Below are positions 25,489-56,826 of a stretch of DNA of 64,000 nt, in pieces (the first letter of the stretch is position 1; every line of letters starts with the position of its first letter). Location: assembly GCF_013408335.1 (NCBI RefSeq), contig NZ_JACBZR010000001.1:3759501-3823500 (forward strand), given 5' to 3'. The notes under the pieces were generated by a model that was not told the DNA's origin, did no database searches, and saw only the letters and a list, made by a program, of their open reading frames with translations. This stretch comes from Nocardioides panzhihuensis (GTDB lineage: Bacteria > Actinomycetota > Actinomycetes > Propionibacteriales > Nocardioidaceae). The translations under genes were made by a program, and so were the position numbers.

Positions 25489-26739
25489 CTAGCGTACGTG
25501 TCCCTCGCCGGTGACGATGTACTTCGTCGAGGTCATCTCGGGCAGGCCCATCGGGCCCCGAGCGTGCAGCTTCTGGGTCGAGATCCCGATCTCCGCACCG
25601 AAGCCGAACTCGCCGCCGTCGGTGAACCGTGTCGAGGCGTTGACCATGACCGCCGCGGAGTCGACCGCGGCGGTGAACCGCCGGGCGGCGCCCAGATCGT
25701 CGGTGACGATCGCCTCGGTGTGACCGCTCGACCAGCGTCGGATGTGCTGGACGGCAGCATCGAGGGAAGGTACGACGGCGGCACTGATCTTCAGCTCCAG
25801 GAACTCGGCCGCGTAGTCCTCGTCGGTGACCGGCTCGACCAGGTCATAGGCCTGGAAGGCCTCGTCTCCGTGGATCTGAACGCCACGCTCCTGGAGCGCG
25901 GGGATCACCTTGGGCAGGAACTCCTCGGCGATGTCGGCGTGCACGAGCAGCGACTCGGCGGAGTTGCACACGCTGGTGCGCTGGGTCTTGGAGTTGATGA
26001 CGATCGCGAGCGCCTTGTCGAGATCGGCGGCCTTGTCGACATAGACGTGCACGTTGCCCACCCCGGTCTCGATGACCGGCACGGTGGACTCCTCGACGAC
26101 GCTGCGGATCAGGCCGGCGCCACCGCGCGGGATGAGCACGTCGGCCAGCCCACGGGCACGCATCAGGGCCTTGACCGAGTCGTGGCCCTCCCCGGGCACG
26201 ACCTGGATCACGTCGGCCGGGAGGCCGACGGAGACCACGGCGTCGCGGAGCACGGCGACGATCGCCACGTTGCTGGCCGCGATGTTGGAGGAACCACGCA
26301 GCAGCGCCGCGTTGCCGGACTTGAGGCAGATCCCGGCCGCGTCCACGGTGACGTTGGGGCGTGCCTCGTAGATCATCCCGACGACACCGAAGGGGACTCG
26401 CACCTGGCGCAGCTCGAGGCCGTTGGCGAGGGTGCTGCCGCGGACGACATCTCCGACCGGATCCGGCAGTGCGGCGAGGTCGCGGAGCGCGGTGGCGATG
26501 CCGTCGAGGCGCTCCTGGGTCAGGGTGAGGCGGTCGACGATGTTGGCCGGGCTGCCGGACGCCTCGGCACGGGCCACGTCGGCCGCATTGGCCGCCAGCA
26601 CCTCGTCGGCCCGGTCGAGCAGGGCATCGGCCATCGCGTGCAGCGCCGCGTCCTTCACGCTGCGCGGCGCGACCGCGAGCTCGTAGCTCGCCGCTCGTGC
26701 CTTCGCCGCCACCTCACGGATCACTGCCTCTGCGCTCAT
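25489..26739 (-). CDS. proA: Gamma-glutamyl phosphate reductase (glutamate-5-semialdehyde dehydrogenase)
   Basis: The second step of proline synthesis, reducing gamma-glutamyl phosphate with NADPH. The 416-residue protein has the ALDH-like fold with [54 protein letters not shown] and the catalytic cysteine region [36 protein letters not shown] family residues appear near the C-terminus. The start at 26739 overlaps by four bases (ATGA) the stop of a 27-codon leader ORF that recurs before two other genes in this window, so its translation is probably coupled to that leader. Confidence 0.95.
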
Positions 26740-26819
26740 GCCGCCGCCTCCGTAGGGCAGATCGAAGAATACGGAACCGGCGGCCTGAGGCCCGTTGCCG
26801 CTCGCTGACGCTCGCTCAT
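26736..26819 (-). CDS. Conserved 27-codon leader ORF upstream of proA
   Basis: Reads [13 protein letters not shown], then [14 protein letters not shown], and stops on the TGA of the proA start (ATGA). It is 72 of 84 bases identical to the leader before the ECF41 sigma gene (40631-40714), and of the same length. The final third holds TCCGTA and TACGGA, which can pair across 15 nt, the second arm running into the proA ribosome site ACGGAGG. Rare codons for this genome (AGG, TAT, TCT) are kept between copies. Most differences between copies change amino acids, so nucleotide or RNA constraint may matter as much as peptide sequence. Confidence 0.65.
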
Positions 26820-26826
26820 GATGGAA

Positions 26827-26832
26827 ACCCTA
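26827..26832 (-). promoter_or_regulatory. TAGGGT box, 7 nt before the proA leader
   Basis: TAGGGT on the minus strand ends 7 nt before the leader ATG, the spacing of a -10 hexamer for a leaderless transcript. The same hexamer lies 7 nt before the leader at 40714 and 6 nt before the one at 41389. Confidence 0.55.
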
Positions 26833-26888
26833 TGCCGTCGGCCGTACGCAGCCACCACCCTTTCGCCGTGCGGACCGCACGGGCAGGG

Positions 26889-27314
26889 TCAGTCCTCGCC
26901 GCCCAGCCCCAACAGCGCGCCCAGCCCCTCGAGCGGACCGCGGGGGCGCTCGGAGGGTTTTGCCGTCGCCATCGGCTCACCGCTCGCCGATGCGGAGGGC
27001 CTCGGCTTCCGCGGCGGCTTCGCCGGCTTCGACTCGTCGGGCTCGCCCACCGGTCGGGCTCGTGGCGAGACCTCGAGCCGTTCCTGCTTCCCGGCCGGAC
27101 TCGCCGCGGCCGATGCGCTCGCCGCGGGCTCCGACTCGGTCATCGCCGGATAGTCAACCGGTGGCTGGTGGGACCTCCTGACGAACGCGATCCCCGACAT
27201 CGCACCGGCGAAGAGCGCCGACAGCACCAGCGCCGAGATCCAGGGCGTCCAGCCGCGCCACCAACCTCCGGCGGGGCCTCGCGCCCCGTCGAGCTCACTC
27301 GCTCCCACAACCAT
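26889..27314 (-). CDS. Hypothetical single-span membrane protein with Pro/Ala-rich tail
   Basis: A 141-residue protein of unknown function. A short N-terminus is followed by one membrane span (WISALVLSALFAGAMSGIAF, residues 25-44), a basic boundary and a low-complexity tail rich in Ala, Pro, Ser and Lys (SKPAKPPRKPRPSASAS). It ends GALLGLGGED. The start at 27314 (ATG, MVVGASELDG) is chosen because the upstream frame is antisense-like shadow. A membrane-anchored protein with a disordered tail is as far as the sequence goes. Confidence 0.5.
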   Translation of the reverse strand: MVVGASELDGARGPAGGWWRGWTPWISALVLSALFAGAMSGIAFVRRSHQPPVDYPAMTESEPAASASAAASPAGKQERLEVSPRARPVGEPDESKPAKPPRKPRPSASASGEPMATAKPSERPRGPLEGLGALLGLGGED

Positions 27315-27354: not shown

Positions 27355-28260
27355 CTAGCCGCGAACCGAGCCCTCTGGGGCGATGTGGACATCACCGGAT
27401 CGCGCGATCTCGAGCAGGAGGTCGTGCGCCCGCGCGGCGACCGGGTTGTCGGTACGCCGCGCGCCGAGCTCCACCAGCGCGACCAGGTCCGCGGAGCGCG
27501 CCAGGTCGAGGGCGTCCATGGTGCTGCCACCGCGCGCCGAGACGTAGCCCTCCAGCACTCCCGCGACGTAAGCCTCCTGCCGGTCGAACCGCAGCAGATT
27601 GCCGAGATCGGCGTACGGGGATCCGGCATGGGCGAACTCCCAGTCGACGACCGCACGCACGCTCAGCGTCTCCGGATCGAGGATGAGGTTCTTCGGGTTG
27701 AGGTCGCTGTGCACCAGGCTCACCCTGGCGACCGTGTCGAGCAGGAGCTGGGCGTCGGCGGCCGCGTCGCGCAGACCCTCCAGGACGTCAGGTGACCAGT
27801 CGAGTCGATCCGCATACGACTCGACCCAGTCGGTCAGGTCCAACGCGTGCGCCTCGACCCGCAGCTCCTTGTCGGCGAAGGTCCCGGCAGTCAGGAACGG
27901 CATCCCGGCGAGGGTCGCCGCGATCTCCCCGAGTCCGCGTCCGAGCCTGCGCTGCTGCTCCTCGTCCAGGTCAGGAACCAGCAGGTCGCCGCGTACGCCT
28001 TCGACGAACTCGGTCACCAGCAGCGCGGGCGTGCCCACGTCGGGGTCGGCGCGGCGTACCTCCAAGACCTTCGGGACCGGGAGGAGGCCCCGCACCAGAC
28101 GGTGCAGGGCCTCTTGGATCTCCGCGGCCTGCGGGGGATGGCGCGGGTCGGCGAAGACCCGCACGACCGACCGCTCACCACCGGCCTCCGCCAGGAACGT
28201 CTCTCCCGACCAGCCGCCGTCGAGCGGCCGGATGCCTCCATCGAGTTCACCGAAGCTCAC
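27355..28260 (-). CDS. Aminoglycoside phosphotransferase/kinase-fold protein
   Basis: A 301-residue small-molecule kinase of the APH (choline/aminoglycoside kinase-like) superfamily. The catalytic loop is LVHSDLNPKNLILD and the metal-binding Asp is in AVVDWEFAHAGSPYADLGNL. The N-lobe has GGWSGETFLAEAGGERSVVR and TPALLVTEFVEG. Its substrate is unknown; many such proteins phosphorylate metabolites rather than antibiotics. There is no neighbour that suggests a resistance role. Confidence 0.85.
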   Translation of the reverse strand: MSFGELDGGIRPLDGGWSGETFLAEAGGERSVVRVFADPRHPPQAAEIQEALHRLVRGLLPVPKVLEVRRADPDVGTPALLVTEFVEGVRGDLLVPDLDEEQQRRLGRGLGEIAATLAGMPFLTAGTFADKELRVEAHALDLTDWVESYADRLDWSPDVLEGLRDAAADAQLLLDTVARVSLVHSDLNPKNLILDPETLSVRAVVDWEFAHAGSPYADLGNLLRFDRQEAYVAGVLEGYVSARGGSTMDALDLARSADLVALVELGARRTDNPVAARAHDLLLEIARSGDVHIAPEGSVRG

Positions 28261-39734: not shown

Positions 39735-40634
39735 TCAGCGTTCCAGATGGACCTCTCCCGCGACGCCGCCGAGCTTGGCCGGATTGCGGACGTAGTAGAG
39801 CCCGGTGACCATACCGTCCTCGACGTGCAGGGTGACGACGCCGTCGACCTCCTCGCCGAAGTAGACCAGCATCCCCGGCGATCTGTTCACACTGGTCAGC
39901 TCGAACCTGGGGATGCCGTACTTCGTCGCCAGCCCCGTGAAGAACCGCAGCACCTTGTCGGCGCCGTGGATCGGGTTGCGGGCGGCCTGCACCACACCGC
40001 CCCCGTCGGAGAAGAGCACGACATCGGGTGCGAGCACGTCCAGCAGCGACTGCAGGTCGCCACCGGTCGCGGCGTCGCGGAACCGCTCCAGGGCGCGACG
40101 CGCCTCGGTGGCCGAGACCGCCTCGCGCGGCCGCCGCTCGGCGACGTGGTCGCGGGCCCGATGAGCGATCTGCCGCACCGCGGCCGGCGACTTGTCGACC
40201 GCCGCGGCGATCTCGTCGTAGCCCAGCGCGAAGACCTCGCGAAGGACGAAGACCGCCCGCTCGGTCGGCGAGAGGGTCTCCAGGACCAGCAGTACGGCGG
40301 TCGAGAGCGAGTCGGCGAGCTCGGCGTCCTCGGCGACGTCGGGGGCGGTCAACAGCGGCTCCGGCAGCCACGGACCGACGTACGTCTCCTTGCGGCGCGA
40401 CAGCGTCCGGATGCGGTTGAGGGCGAGCCGGGTGGTGATCCGCACCAGGTAGGCGCGCTGGTCGCGCACCTCCTCCAGCGGGACATCGGCCCAGCGCAAC
40501 CACGTCTCCTGGAGCACGTCCTCGGCGTCGGCGGCCGAACCGAGCATCTCGTAGGCCACCGTGAAGAGCAGGTTGCGGTGGGCGACGAAGGCCTCCGTCG
40601 CGGCGTCGTCGCTCGCCCCGTCGGACTCGATCAT
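39735..40634 (-). CDS. ECF41-group RNA polymerase sigma factor (SigJ-like) with SnoaL-like C-terminal domain
   Basis: A 299-residue extracytoplasmic sigma factor. Region 2 (FVAHRNLLFTVAYEMLGSAA, DAEDVLQETWLRWADV) and region 4 (LSPTERAVFVLREVFALGYD, AAAVDKSPAAVRQIAHRARD) are followed by a C-terminal NTF2/SnoaL domain with DGGGVVQAARNPIHG, the group's DGGG-type motif. ECF41 members are controlled by this tail rather than an anti-sigma factor and are usually next to a carboxymuconolactone decarboxylase-like gene, as here (40711-41295). The start overlaps a conserved leader ORF by ATGA. Confidence 0.92.
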   Translation of the reverse strand: MIESDGASDDAATEAFVAHRNLLFTVAYEMLGSAADAEDVLQETWLRWADVPLEEVRDQRAYLVRITTRLALNRIRTLSRRKETYVGPWLPEPLLTAPDVAEDAELADSLSTAVLLVLETLSPTERAVFVLREVFALGYDEIAAAVDKSPAAVRQIAHRARDHVAERRPREAVSATEARRALERFRDAATGGDLQSLLDVLAPDVVLFSDGGGVVQAARNPIHGADKVLRFFTGLATKYGIPRFELTSVNRSPGMLVYFGEEVDGVVTLHVEDGMVTGLYYVRNPAKLGGVAGEVHLER

Positions 40635-40714
40635 GCCGCCGGCTCCGTAGTGCAGAGCAAAGAATACGGACCCAGCGGCCTGAGGCCGATCGTCGCTCGC
40701 TTGCGCTCGCTCAT
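40631..40714 (-). CDS. Conserved 27-codon leader ORF upstream of the ECF41 sigma gene
   Basis: Reads MSERKRATIGLRP, then LGPYSLLCTTEPAA, and stops on the sigma gene's start (ATGA). Its own ATG overlaps the stop of the decarboxylase gene, so three genes are linked by 4-bp overlaps. It matches the proA leader at 18 of 27 residues and 72 of 84 bases. TCCGTA and TACGGA can pair with the sigma ribosome site ACGGAG in the second arm. TAGGGT lies 7 nt before the ATG, inside the end of the decarboxylase gene, and could be an internal leaderless promoter. Confidence 0.65.
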   Translation of the reverse strand: MSERKRATIGLRPLGPYSLLCTTEPAA

Positions 40715-41295
40715 GCCTGCGACCCTACCGGCGCGGGCGCCAGCGGGATCTCGCAGACGTCGGAGTAGCCCTGGCTCTGCAGCCCAGCGGCGGAGTTGAA
40801 CCGCGATCGCATGTTCTCCAGCGCGATCATCTGGGTCAGCTCCACCATCGCCTCGGCGCCCAGCTCGGCCAGCAGGGCGGCGACCATCTCGTCGGTGACC
40901 GTCATCGGCGTGGTCGTCATCGCCTCGGCGTACTCGATGACCTTCCTCTCGGTCTCGTCGAAGACGTCGGAGGTCCGCCACACCTGTACCTGGCTGATCT
41001 TCTCGAGATCGAGGTTCTCGTTGCCGGCGAGGTAGTAGCCGAAGTCCAGGCACCAGCTGCACCCGATCGTGCTCGCCGCGGCCATCTCGGCCAGCGACTT
41101 GTACGTCGGGTCGAGCGCCTTCCACTTCCCCGCTCTCGTCTCGAACCCCATCACCGCGCGCAGCACCGGCTTGTGGTGGAACAGGACGTAGCCGACGTCG
41201 GGGACCTCGCCGTACATCTTCCTGCTCACCCGCCGCACCACGGCGCCGTAGAGACCGGTCAGATCTGCCTTCGGGATCCTGAACGTACTGGGCAT
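40711..41295 (-). CDS. Carboxymuconolactone decarboxylase/AhpD-like protein, ECF41 partner
   Basis: A 194-residue all-helical protein of the CMD/AhpD superfamily. The redox-type motif is STIGCSWCLDFGYYLAG, with CxxC and a following Asp, and the second helix pair has DVFDETERKVIEYAEAMTTT. In ECF41 systems such genes are the target and neighbour of the sigma factor; the biochemical role is unknown, perhaps a peroxidase-type redox function. ATG 41295 (MPSTFRIPKAD) follows GGAGGGCGACG; the longer frame to 41349 overlaps the promoter. Transcribed toward the sigma gene from a promoter matching ECF41. Confidence 0.85.
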   Translation of the reverse strand: MPSTFRIPKADLTGLYGAVVRRVSRKMYGEVPDVGYVLFHHKPVLRAVMGFETRAGKWKALDPTYKSLAEMAAASTIGCSWCLDFGYYLAGNENLDLEKISQVQVWRTSDVFDETERKVIEYAEAMTTTPMTVTDEMVAALLAELGAEAMVELTQMIALENMRSRFNSAAGLQSQGYSDVCEIPLAPAPVGSQA

Positions 41296-41338
41296 CGTCG
41301 CCCTCCTCTTTCTGGGTCGAGCATCTCGTCCCCATCCA

Positions 41339-41365
41339 GACACCGACAACCGTCAGGCTGTGACA
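41339..41365 (-). promoter_or_regulatory. ECF41-type promoter of the decarboxylase-sigma operon
   Basis: On the minus strand TGTCACA (41359-41365) is followed 16 nt later by TGTC (41339-41342). The ECF41 consensus as I recall it is TGTCACA, 16 bp, CGTC, so the -35 is perfect and the -10 differs by one base. It lies about 45 bp before the decarboxylase start and would give autoregulation of the operon. The Nudix-leader promoter runs the other way a few bases on. Confidence 0.75.
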
Positions 41366-41388: not shown

Positions 41389-41475
41389 GTGAGCGAGCGC
41401 CAGCGAGGGACCCAACAAAAACTCACGCGACCATGTCCGTACTCTGGCGCTTGCGCTACGGAGGTGGTCGCGTGA
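41389..41475 (+). CDS. Conserved 28-codon leader ORF upstream of the Nudix gene
   Basis: Starts GTG and reads MSERQRGTQQKLTRP, then CPYSGACATEVVA; its stop overlaps the Nudix GTG start (GTGA). It shares MSERxR at the start and P-x-PYS-xx-C-x-TE near the end with the leaders at 26736 and 40631, with a diverged middle. TCCGTA and TACGGA are again present 15 nt apart, the second merging into GGAGG before the Nudix start. One codon longer than the other two. Confidence 0.6.
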   Translation: MSERQRGTQQKLTRPCPYSGACATEVVA

Positions 41476-42215
41476 GCGAGCCAGAGACGACGACGGTGGC
41501 GGAGGGCGTTGCCCGGATCGAGTGGGCCGCGGGCGAGTCCGTCGATGTCGTACGCCGCGAGGTGGCCGCCGCGCTGCTCACCCACCATCGGGTGGAGGCG
41601 CTGATCGACCCGGTCGACCCTGCTGAACAGCGCACCGCGACCTGGTCGGGTCTCCACCGTGAGGGCCTGCTCCGGGGTGTGTCGGGCGGCGAGGACCGGA
41701 TGATCTACGCCCGGGTGGCGAGCGATGCGCCGGTGGAGGCCCCCGAGGGCTTCCGGGCGCTGCTCAACTCGTTCCTTCCGCGCAAGCGCGCGATCGGGCA
41801 GATGCTGGTGCGCGACCCCGAGGACCGGGTCCTGATGTGCCAGCTGACCTACAAGAAGGACTGGGACCTGCCCGGCGGGATCGTGGAGGTCGGCGAGTCG
41901 CCGAAGCTGGCGACCACCCGCGAGATCGAGGAGGAGCTCGCCCTCCTGATCCCCGCCGGCGACCTGCTCCTCACCGACTGGCTGCCGCCCTGGGGCGGCT
42001 GGGACGACGCCATCTGCCTCGTCTTCGACGGCGGCATCCGTCCTTCCTCGATCATCGAGCAGGCCACCCTCCAGCCGCGCGAGATCCGCTCAGTGGCGTT
42101 CTGCACCCTCGACGAGGTCCGCGACCGGGCCGCCGACTTCACCGCCCGCCGGGTCGAGGCCGCTCTCGCCGCGCTGCGGGGCGGCCGCGGCTACACCGAG
42201 TCGGGGCGGGCGTAG
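41472..42215 (+). CDS. Nudix hydrolase with an N-terminal extension
   Basis: A 247-residue protein. The C-terminal half is a Nudix domain with a clear Nudix box, GGIVEVGESPKLATTREIEE followed by EL, preceded by LMCQLTYKKDWDLP. It would hydrolyse nucleoside diphosphate-linked compounds. The N-terminal 95 residues (AAGESVDVVRREVAAALLTH) are not recognised with certainty. GTG 41472 is chosen since it overlaps the leader stop and follows GGAGGTGG. The 3' end overlaps the convergent EamA gene by 126 bp. Confidence 0.85.
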   Translation: MSEPETTTVAEGVARIEWAAGESVDVVRREVAAALLTHHRVEALIDPVDPAEQRTATWSGLHREGLLRGVSGGEDRMIYARVASDAPVEAPEGFRALLNSFLPRKRAIGQMLVRDPEDRVLMCQLTYKKDWDLPGGIVEVGESPKLATTREIEEELALLIPAGDLLLTDWLPPWGGWDDAICLVFDGGIRPSSIIEQATLQPREIRSVAFCTLDEVRDRAADFTARRVEAALAALRGGRGYTESGRA

Positions 42216-54490: not shown

Positions 54491-55777
54491 CTAGGCGAGC
54501 GCGAAGTAGCGGAGGGCGACGTAGACCCAGGCGACGGCCAGCGTCACGATCGTCACCACGATGCCGTACCGCGTGAACTTCCAGAAGCTGATCGGGTGGC
54601 CGGACTTGGCAGCGAGGCCGAGCACGACCACGTTGGCGCCGGCGGCGACGGCGGTGGTGTTGCCGCCGAGGTCGGCGCCGAAGACCAGGGCCCACCACAG
54701 CGGACTGTCGGCGCCCGAGGACGGCGTCGCGGCGACCATCTCCTCCACGATCGGCACCATCGCCGCGGTGTAGGGGATGTTGTCGACGAAGCCACCCACG
54801 ACCGCCGAGCCGATCATCAGCCCGGTCACCCCGGCGAGCTCGTTGTCGCCCATCAGGTCGGCGGCGTACGTTCCCAGCGACCCGATCACACCGACCTCGA
54901 CCAGGCCTCCGACCAGCACGAACAGAGCCATGAAGAAGGCGAGCGTCGACCACTCGACCTCCTCCAGGAAGGCCTCGGTCGGTGTCTGCGAGACGACGAC
55001 CATCGCGCCGGCGCCGAGCATGGCGACCAGCGACGGGTCCAGGTGGAGCTCGGTGTGCAGGCCGAAGGCGAGCATCACCAGGGCCAGGACGGCCAGGCAT
55101 CGGTAGAGCAGCCCACGGTCCGGGATCGCCGAGGCGGGCGGCTCGATCAGGCCGTCCAGGTCGACCTGGCCACGGAAGTCGCGGCGGAAGAGCACCCGGA
55201 CCAGACCGATCAGCACGACCAGCAGGATCAGGCACAGCGGCAGCGAGTGGATCAGGAAGTCGTCGAAGGTCAGGTTCGCCCGGCTGGCCACGATGATGTT
55301 GGGCGGGTCGGCGATCAGGGTCGAGGTGCCGCCGACGTTCGCGGCCAGGATGAGCGAGATCAGGTACGGCATCGGGTTCAGTCCCAGCCGCTCGCAGACC
55401 GACAACGTCACCGGCGTGACCAGCAGCACCGTGGTCACGTTGTCAAGGATGGGCGAGAGCGCCGCGGTGACGAGGATCAGCAGCGTCGCCAGACGCGCCG
55501 GGCGGCCGCCGGAGTGCTTGACCGCCCATAGCGCAAGGAACTCGAACAGGCCCGTCTGCTTCAGGACGCCGACGATCACCATCATCCCGAAGAGCAGGAA
55601 GATGACGTCCCAGTCGACCCCGGTCTCGTGACTGTAGAAGGCGGACTCGGCACTGATGATCCCGATCGCCACCATCGCCGCGACACCGCCCAGGGCTGCG
55701 GCGACGCGGTGGACACGCTCGGTGGCGATGAGACCGTAGGTGACGATGAAGATCGCGATTGCTGCGTACACGATCAT
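54491..55777 (-). CDS. SLC13/ArsB-NhaD-type ion transporter
   Basis: A 428-residue permease with about eleven spans. Characteristic segments are YAAIAIFIVTYGLIATERVH, VDWDVIFLLFGMMVIVGVLK, ATLLILVTAALSPILDNVTT, LILAANVGGTSTLIADPPNI and GGFVDNIPYTAAMVPIVEEM, which repeat the DN and DPPN motifs of the ArsB/NhaD ion transporter superfamily. It could move sodium, arsenite or dicarboxylate; sequence alone does not decide. It is divergent from the histidine kinase gene by 101 bp. Confidence 0.85.
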   Translation of the reverse strand: MIVYAAIAIFIVTYGLIATERVHRVAAALGGVAAMVAIGIISAESAFYSHETGVDWDVIFLLFGMMVIVGVLKQTGLFEFLALWAVKHSGGRPARLATLLILVTAALSPILDNVTTVLLVTPVTLSVCERLGLNPMPYLISLILAANVGGTSTLIADPPNIIVASRANLTFDDFLIHSLPLCLILLVVLIGLVRVLFRRDFRGQVDLDGLIEPPASAIPDRGLLYRCLAVLALVMLAFGLHTELHLDPSLVAMLGAGAMVVVSQTPTEAFLEEVEWSTLAFFMALFVLVGGLVEVGVIGSLGTYAADLMGDNELAGVTGLMIGSAVVGGFVDNIPYTAAMVPIVEEMVAATPSSGADSPLWWALVFGADLGGNTTAVAAGANVVVLGLAAKSGHPISFWKFTRYGIVVTIVTLAVAWVYVALRYFALA

Positions 55778-55878
55778 GTGTTGAGCTCCATGCCATCGAC
55801 TCTCCGCGACCGCACGCCCGATCCGAATGGGTGCTGCCACCCATAAGCCCTGGCCAGAGAGCATGTCAGGGTTGCTGC

Positions 55879-56826
55879 ATGAGTCATCTACCCCTCTACT
55901 GGCGGGTCTGCCTGACGAACTGGGCGGTGTTCTGCGTCGGGACCCTGGTCCTGGCGCTGTCCCCGGCCCGGGTCTCGGAGCGGGTCCTGGCCTCGGAGGC
56001 GCTGGTGCTGGCGGTGGGGCTGGTCGTGATGGCGACCCTCAACGCCCTCCTGCTGCTGCGCAGCCTGGCACCGATCGACCGGGTTATCCGCACGATGGAC
56101 TCGGTGGACCACCTCTCCCCCGACCAGCGCCTGTCCACCCAGGGCAAGGGCGCCGGCGCCCGGCTGGTCGCCAGCTACAACGCGATGCTCGAGCGACTGG
56201 AGACCGAGCGGAGCACCAGCAACGCCAAGGCGCTCGCCGCCCAGGAGGCCGAGCGGCACCGGATCGCCCAAGAGCTCCACGACGAGGTCGGGCAGTCGCT
56301 CACCGTCGTACTCCTGGGGCTCAAGGGGCTGGAGCGGCAGGTGCCGGAATCGGTTCGCGAGGAGTTCGCCGCCGTCCGTGAGTCGGCCCGGACCGGCATC
56401 GACGACGTACGCCGCGTGGCCCGGCAGCTACGTCCCGGCGTGCTCGAGGACCTCGGCCTGCACGCCGCCCTCGCCTCGCTGGCCACCGACGTCGGCGCCC
56501 GCGGCCGCACCACCGTACGGCGCACGATCGCGCCCGGACTTCCCGACCTCCCCCAGGACCGCGAGCTCGTGATCTACCGGGTCGCTCAGGAGGCGCTCAC
56601 CAACGTCGTACGACACGCCCACGCTGCCACCGCCGACCTCTCCCTCGGCAAGGTCGGCGACAAGGTGGTCCTCACCGTCACCGACGACGGCCGCGGCAGC
56701 GCCGACCTGGTGCCCGGCGCCGGGATCAGCGGCATGCGGGAGCGCGCCCTTCTCGTCGGTGCCGACCTGAGCGTGGCCAGCGCCCCCGGCCAGGGCACCA
56801 CCGTCCGTCTCGAGGTGCCGCTGTGA
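55879..56826 (+). CDS. Membrane sensor histidine kinase (NarL-system type)
   Basis: A 315-residue kinase. Two membrane spans (TNWAVFCVGTLVLALSPARV, LVLAVGLVVMATLNALLLLR) enclose only a short extracytoplasmic loop, so sensing is probably within the membrane. A HAMP-like linker leads to the HisKA_3 dimerisation helix with the phospho-acceptor in RIAQELHDEVGQSLTVVLLG and an ATPase domain with VIYRVAQEALTNVVRHAHA and LTVTDDGRGS. The response-regulator start overlaps its stop (GTGA). ATG 55879 is chosen. Confidence 0.92.
   Translation: MSHLPLYWRVCLTNWAVFCVGTLVLALSPARVSERVLASEALVLAVGLVVMATLNALLLLRSLAPIDRVIRTMDSVDHLSPDQRLSTQGKGAGARLVASYNAMLERLETERSTSNAKALAAQEAERHRIAQELHDEVGQSLTVVLLGLKGLERQVPESVREEFAAVRESARTGIDDVRRVARQLRPGVLEDLGLHAALASLATDVGARGRTTVRRTIAPGLPDLPQDRELVIYRVAQEALTNVVRHAHAATADLSLGKVGDKVVLTVTDDGRGSADLVPGAGISGMRERALLVGADLSVASAPGQGTTVRLEVPL

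Follow-up and report, generated by a model that had tools for sequence, protein, structure and literature searches.

MIRUs are best known as typing markers in tuberculosis, and the work of Supply from 1997 is said to be the original paper on them. In published work they figure as apparently mobile units whose insertion at a start codon couples their ORF to the gene at a −4 nt spacing (PMC12548453); the kind of device is thus known, while the original prediction for the locus discussed here knew of no description of it. The parA gene is reported to be leaderless in M. marinum, and its ortholog in M. bovis to have a 77-nt 5′ UTR that is a class I MIRU (PMC4128351). Another point of comparison is provided by IS200/IS605 elements, at whose ends a guide sequence is described to pair with the cleavage site (PMC6006769, PMC8266576). 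In the titles and abstract openings of the literature matches listed, no such start-codon unit was described outside mycobacteria, and two reviews of small mobile sequences did not mention MIRUs.

The window analysed in this work is a stretch of 64,000 nucleotides from the genome of Nocardioides panzhihuensis. The proA gene (25489..26739, minus strand) encodes glutamate-5-semialdehyde dehydrogenase (NF001221 and TIGR00407 above the cut-off) and is preceded by a 27-codon leader ORF (26736..26819, minus strand), which we regard as a mobile unit. Read from 26819 to 26736, the layout is ATGA-N76-ATGA, i.e., 84 nt including both ATGA motifs, with a repeat period of 80 bp. The left ATGA (26816..26819) forms the leader start codon and would represent the host target site; in the right ATGA (26736..26739) the leader TGA overlaps the proA ATG, exactly as had been predicted. 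Directly behind the left ATGA lies a 5′ hairpin (26800..26815) of the form GC-GA-GC-GTCA-GC-GA-GC, with two G·A mismatch pairs and outer pairs that covary among copies. It is followed by the 5′ arm of a 3′ hairpin (26770..26789), whose CTCA end pairs with TGAG at the proA start, and by the 3′ arm (26735..26754), which contains the proA start codon and a unit-borne Shine-Dalgarno sequence (SD), GGAGG (26747..26751), 7 nt 5′ of the proA ATG. The predicted TCCGTA/TACGGA arms are real and form part of this longer pair of 20-nt arms, which are 85% complementary and span both the SD and the start codon. TAGGGT, a TANNNT −10 box attributable to the host proA promoter, lies outside the unit (26827..26832). 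An APH-family phosphotransferase-like gene (27355-28260, minus strand) is located upstream of the proA locus.

Two other copies are present in the window. The second (40631..40714, minus strand) has 27 codons and lies between a CMD-domain gene (40711..41349, minus strand), whose stop overlaps it, and an ECF sigma gene with a SnoaL_2 domain (39735..40634, minus strand; SigJ/SigX4 models); its left TGA is the stop of the former gene and its right ATG the start of the latter. The region 39735-41349 therefore reads as a CMD-domain gene followed by a SnoaL_2-bearing ECF sigma gene, split by the unit at their overlap, an arrangement that we take to be ECF41-like. The third copy (41389..41475, plus strand) precedes a Nudix-domain gene (41472..42215, plus strand), has 28 codons and carries GTGA at both ends. 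The original prediction, which gave all three leaders the same length, holds for the ECF copy and fails for the Nudix copy; likewise, the TAGGGT box expected 7 nt before the ATG is found at that distance at proA, and 6 nt upstream at the Nudix copy.

The Nocardioides elements closely resemble MIRUs in architecture, the two being likened by layout and not by sequence. In our opinion, with a probability of roughly 0.83, the leader is a non-autonomous mobile element of MIRU-like type which captures a start that was leaderless or coupled and, by means of its own SD, passes ribosomes back to the host gene. As the sources present MIRUs, the common features are dispersed units of 40-100 bp at start codons, that of a leaderless gene included, an ORF at −4 nt spacing, and a copy number that varies between isolates (PMC12548453, PMC4128351, PMC2734929). 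The M. bovis parA MIRU would accordingly be the same kind of event as the unit at proA (PMC4128351). The differences lie in the genus and in the length, which is 80/83 bp here versus 77 and 53 bp at senX3-regX3 (PMC4213456). In addition, covarying hairpins, a unit-borne SD, the selection profile described below and a match between hairpin arm and target are found here and are features that the passages on MIRUs drawn on here leave unmentioned. Small mobile sequences compatible with reading frames are also known, in the accounts drawn on here, as Rickettsia palindromic elements and enterobacterial RU elements, which are located inside genes or between them. Unlike them, the unit described here stands exactly at a start codon, with a frame of its own that ends there.

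When the genome of N. panzhihuensis was searched by BLAST with the proA leader, 48 matches were obtained, 43 of them (query included) at E<=4.1e-7 and several in tandem with an 80-bp period. Thirty-nine of these 43 begin at query position 30-33, which corresponds to the left RTGA, and the others at positions 1 (the query itself), 6, 24 and 28. As similarity stops at the left RTGA in 39/43 matches, TAGGGT belongs to the host site, and the earlier view of it as a box of the cassette had to be abandoned. A pass with nhmmer over the fetched loci gave 46 copies, and the covariance model built from them scored 48 bits or more at 80 places in the 6.3-Mb genome. At E<=1e-6, the model matched 9 of 215 Nocardioides genomes (N. 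panzhihuensis included), with 17 to 20 matches in each of the nine carriers among the best 20 scored per genome; the search in relatives suggested in the original prediction thus yielded further copies. The unit is an 80- or 83-bp repeat bounded by RTGA, and its dozens of dispersed copies fall within the 40-100 bp size class of MIRUs. Rfam models gave no match at E<=1 in the interval 26600-27000 of the window. When the threshold was lowered to E<=0.01, 16 of 58 relatives matched; these weak-scoring loci were not accepted as true units, as the sampled ones were mostly other hairpin repeats or members of a second family (L048-L059; L and G numbers are our handles for loci and genomes). Some matches across the phylum were also rejected, L329 and L330 being other repeats and L334 probably a chance match.

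Empty sites were sought by joining the flanks of occupied sites at one RTGA and comparing the products with all fetched loci and the window. A total of 87 alignments spanned the junction, many of them to tandem neighbours, and the empty alleles named here are those among the matches listed. Three pairs are gapless: L061 (G011) against window positions 55680-56182 (91% over 503 bp), L279 (G176) against L045 (G011; 89.5% over 467 bp) and L225 (G218) against L222 (G015; 93.7% over 504 bp). In the first pair, the occupied G011 site is orthologous to a single ATGA at 55879..55882 (plus strand) of the window. Small indels elsewhere in the alignment accompany the empty alleles found for L025 of the N. 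panzhihuensis genome against L222 (G015) and for the Nudix copy (L009), whose site is empty in L062 (G015). The proA site is occupied in N. panzhihuensis and in G218 (L227) and empty in N. turkmenicus (L086), whose strain KC13 has a ProA 95% identical to that of N. panzhihuensis; all 22 named-genome loci searched lack the unit at proA. Insertion at start codons with empty sites in relatives is therefore shared with MIRUs, and so are tandem arrays of variable copy number: a single site may hold 3 copies versus 1 (L028/L281), 2 versus 1 (L036/L178), or 0, 1 and 2 (L062/L009/L267). At L213, a further GTGAGCGAGCG... stretch directly follows the unit; it was left out of the copy count, and its frame stays open into the gene.

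This distribution bears on the alternative that the leader is a dedicated regulatory element, acting by attenuation or as a translational switch and kept to control proA, the ECF sigma gene and other genes. The empty sites in relatives argue against it, as does the absence of the unit from the 22 searched proA loci (it is present in G218). The N. panzhihuensis genome has 70 non-tandem downstream genes, and the 30 of them that were scanned with Pfam disclosed no common theme: they comprise proA, sepF-, tilS-, clpS-, Pup-ligase-, lumazine-synthase-, permease-, LacI- and Y-family-polymerase-like genes, three genes without a family, and others. Placement before unrelated genes, as originally noted, is thus borne out in the genes scanned, and it weakens the case for dedicated control. 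We consider a dedicated regulatory leader unlikely, even though its intact ORF, the stems conserved at resident sites and the predicted folding of the SD and start codon, all described below, would be expected of one.

For the frame analysis, we used 167 distinct full-length copies from nine genomes, 84 of them 84 nt and 83 of them 87 nt long. Seventy-five came from the N. panzhihuensis genome, and those of the relatives were the best-scoring ones only; because detection by the model also favours intact copies, decay is undercounted in these figures. The 27- or 28-codon ORF is intact and closes on the right RTGA in 169 of the 172 copies examined (77 of 80 in the N. panzhihuensis genome; 166 of the 167 full-length copies), so that by layout, as read from the sequence, these copies share with MIRUs the small ORF overlapping the host start at −4 nt spacing. 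The five copies of the N. panzhihuensis genome that failed the full-length filter include three intact ones, one with a 10-nt deletion and one that has lost its right end. The 167 copies contain no internal stop in frame, versus 79 in the +1 and 36 in the +2 frame, and the linker and loop codons at 107 independent sites have 0 stops in 805, where 22.5 would be expected from composition. Of 166 copies, 156 have a frame of at least 60 codons starting at the right RTG; in 7 of the 10 others that frame has 27 or 28 codons, i.e., another unit. In a tandem pair at L197, one unit has no stop (GTGC) and its frame does not close on RTGA.

A frame preserved in 169/172 copies could also be that of a small-protein gene with a functional peptide, but the substitution pattern makes this very improbable. 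Peptide dN/dS is 1.08, compared with 0.11 for the host genes over their first 60 codons (30 pairs, some of them not independent); the differences in linker and loop are distributed over the three codon positions as 41, 26 and 26, with no concentration at third positions; and the slow-changing parts are the stems. Judged from these comparisons, the leader peptide is unconstrained in sequence. The dN/dS of about 1 and the lack of single-residue runs in 46 unit peptides also speak against the dedicated leader, and neither conserved sensing codons nor functionally related target genes, as in attenuator leader peptides, were found.

The structure assigned to the unit consists of 26 pairs in two hairpins and an apical stem, with 89.1% of cells pairing. 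The proposed covariance analysis of the stem supported both hairpins, the covariation score being 0.223 versus 0.111 in shuffled alignments (0/500), and RNAalifold alone predicted 19 pairs, all of them among the 26 assigned. The 5′ hairpin has the general form GC-GA-GC-loop-GC-GA-GC, and the 3′ hairpin comprises TCCGTA/TACGGA, GCCGCC/GGCGGC and, at the end of its arms, TCAN/RTGA, enclosing the SD and the start codon; the SD is exactly GGAGG in 88 of 107 independent sites. In pairs of species sharing the same site (21 independent), 4-6% of stem positions differ, compared with 15-18% in linker and loop. Broken pairs at resident sites number 16, versus 47.6 ± 4.8 in controls with relocated changes (0/2000 as low), and their share is 0.48 versus 0.70. 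Double changes were discarded as proof of compensation in their own right (4 versus 1.7 expected, a number reached by 174/2000 controls). Because their excess is weak, the support for hairpin retention comes from the shortage of changed and broken pairs, by which both hairpins are maintained after insertion at resident sites. Conservation of the hairpins at these sites can thus be read from the alignments, as can dispersal, empty sites, frame and overlap. A retained hairpin exceeds what a purely passive insertion needs, and a regulatory effect of some kind may therefore exist. With the 5′ arm kept open, predicted exposure rises from 0.16 to 0.39 for the SD and from 0.19 to 0.53 for the start codon. 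The predicted sequestration is partial, mean SD exposure being below 0.2 at only 31% of the 107 sites and, after opening, above 0.5 at only 30%.

The sites of insertion were characterized by their upstream sequences. The upstream frame ending on the left TGA is open for at least 100 codons in 107 of 167 copies, for fewer than 60 in 56, and for an intermediate length in 4, although long open frames often arise by chance where GC content is so high. In 86 of the 167, a frame of at least 80 open codons also has its GC content highest at third positions, the pattern to be expected if a gene overlaps the left RTGA. TANNNT boxes occur 6, 7 or 8 nt upstream in 41 copies, and only one other, at 12 nt, was seen within 3-12 nt. 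They stand at 6-8 nt in 21 of the 56 copies without a long upstream frame and in 20 of the 107 with one, and TAGGGT was rejected as a cassette part; at the ECF copy, it is located inside the coding end of the CMD gene. Of 18 proA loci of relatives, 17 have an in-frame start no more than 75 nt from the match that is preceded by TANNNT at 6-8 nt; in the remaining one (L098), inspected by eye, the box lies further out. TAGGGT is therefore most simply the −10 box of the gene itself, proA being probably leaderless without the unit, and at both the proA and the Nudix copies the box is a probable leaderless promoter of the host.

From these observations, we infer leaderless transcription, ribosome hand-over and hairpin gating as the steps by which a MIRU-like element would be tolerated. 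The unit would insert at RTGA, which is either an ATGA or GTGA start of a probably leaderless gene or a 4-nt stop/start overlap within an operon, leaving RTGA on either side. Since its length of 80 or 83 nt leaves a remainder of 2 on division by three, a frame of 27 or 28 codons begins at the left RTG and closes on the TGA of the right RTGA. Host initiation, whether on a leaderless mRNA or by coupling to the upstream gene, would now start the leader, and ribosomes terminating on it would pass to the host start four nucleotides back, aided by the unit-borne GGAGG. If the leader were not translated, the SD and start codon would remain folded in the hairpin, which leader translation would open. 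With leader start and hand-over, insertion would be nearly transparent and the gene would remain dependent on upstream translation; by bringing its own tiny frame and hairpins, the unit probably allows the host gene still to be translated. The coupling or attenuation cassette originally proposed thus survives as a portable leader ORF with a coupling layout and a hairpin over the SD before unrelated genes, and gives way to a mobile repeat where a purpose-built attenuator had been supposed. On this account, a selfish sequence can exploit translational coupling and leaderless starts to enter important genes, which would explain a class of tiny leader ORFs that are open to misreading as regulators or peptides.

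In the study of target choice, which covered 107 independent non-tandem sites, left and right RTGA share the same first base in 101 cases, and the host bases to the left of RTGA match the right end of the element, with shuffles as high in 0/2000 at position −1, 14/2000 at −2, 25/2000 at −3 and 57/2000 at −4. Contiguous matches of at least 5 nt from the first RTGA base occur at 18 sites versus 6.6 ± 1.8 (0/5000). The match is significant at 68 ATGA sites (0/5000) and not at 33 GTGA sites (597/5000). L063, among the longest left-flank matches, may adjoin a decayed older copy. A similar signal was obtained for the arm against the left flank (0/2000 at −1, 7/2000 at −2 and 14/2000 at −4; weaker at −3, with 91/2000). 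Pairing of the arm with the base immediately behind the right RTGA was also seen, at 57 of the 107 sites versus 46.9 (6/5000), with no excess at the next two bases in the same set. The GTGA sites, these two bases and L063 count against a guide reading. In nine of the 167 copies, several of them tandem, the left and right first bases are unlike; the right base pairs with the arm in 7 of these and the left would in 1, which speaks against simple target duplication. The commonest right end, moreover, recurs with many unlike left flanks, and target-site duplication is disfavoured as the cause of the left/right similarity.

A statistical match between arm and target beyond chance, which may point to a guide-like choice of target without a detectable Y1 transposase, raises the question of the mover. 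REP/BIME sequences with TnpA_REP and IS200/IS605 elements share with the units multi-copy hairpins, a tetranucleotide at the hairpin foot and a guide-like complement, as far as the sources describe them (PMC6006769, PMC8266576). The unit could be a single-strand element of this type, moved in trans by a Y1 HUH transposase: it has a pair of imperfect hairpins, the first immediately 3′ of the left RTGA and the second with the right RTGA at its end, and 5′ of this second hairpin an arm complementary to the right RTGA, resembling a right-end guide as the same sources present it (PMC6006769, PMC8266576). The tetranucleotide at the foot, however, is RTGA instead of the GT[AG]G of REP/TnpA_REP systems, and the units differ further in their ORF and start-codon target. 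PF01797 (Y1 transposase) was found in 0/37 genus genomes and in 0/16 carriers and relatives. Y1 transposase genes occur in two genomes of another family, including G052, where 9 such matches accompany 3 matches to the pattern of the second family. In this second family of units, the sequence complementary to the left RTGA is found 3′ of the hairpin, whereas published guides, in the accounts cited, lie 5′ (PMC6006769, PMC8266576). Taken together, we regard a Y1-driven element as quite improbable. A reverse transcriptase was also dismissed as the mover, PF00078 being present in only 1 of 9 carriers. More tentatively, and with more doubt than confidence, we propose that the MIRU-like units form a start-codon-targeting class in which the folded strand picks its target by base pairing around RTGA and is moved by a non-Y1 enzyme. 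Pairing would involve the 3′ hairpin through its 5′ arm, joined in the second family by the 5′ hairpin through its foot. If this is true, base-paired target choice would also suggest how MIRUs move.

The second family was recovered with an exact pattern for a shorter 5′ hairpin, which matched in 30 of 209 genus genomes. Among its 30 loci (one per genome), 27 have an ORF that closes on RTGA; in 20 cases it is 84 nt long and mostly encodes MSERSERVIQHS...CAHGAKRVRA; the other ORFs measure 33, 54, 81, 102 or 114 nt, and the exceptions are two loci without a stop in the stretch read and one ending otherwise. At L283-L312, from other Nocardioides genomes, and at L313, from another family, these units have covarying hairpins of their own, and by eye no SD was seen at the usual distance. 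The first base of the left RTGA covaries with the base behind the 5′ hairpin (4 G-C, 15 A-U and 1 G-U; n=20, Fisher p 0.001). MIRU-like elements would thus be numerous in environmental Nocardioidaceae and fall into several sequence families; because both occupied and empty alleles exist, their mobility and effect on translation are testable in harmless hosts.

Related arrangements were observed further afield. In the sister genus g9, a second genus of the family (L319, L321, L328), tandem arrays of related units with 80-bp spacing have long arms ending in RTGA, and in G354 pattern matches lie 83 bp apart. A similar hairpin with GA mismatches (GAGCGAGCG..AGCGAGC) occurs in palindromic repeats without RTGA bounds (L048, L064, L072, L329, L330). 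In a distant actinobacterial family, L332 and L333 (G627, G455) contain 62-bp tandem units beginning GTGAGCGAGCGCCAGCGAGCG, and at L333, inspected by eye, the next GTGA once more ends the frame.
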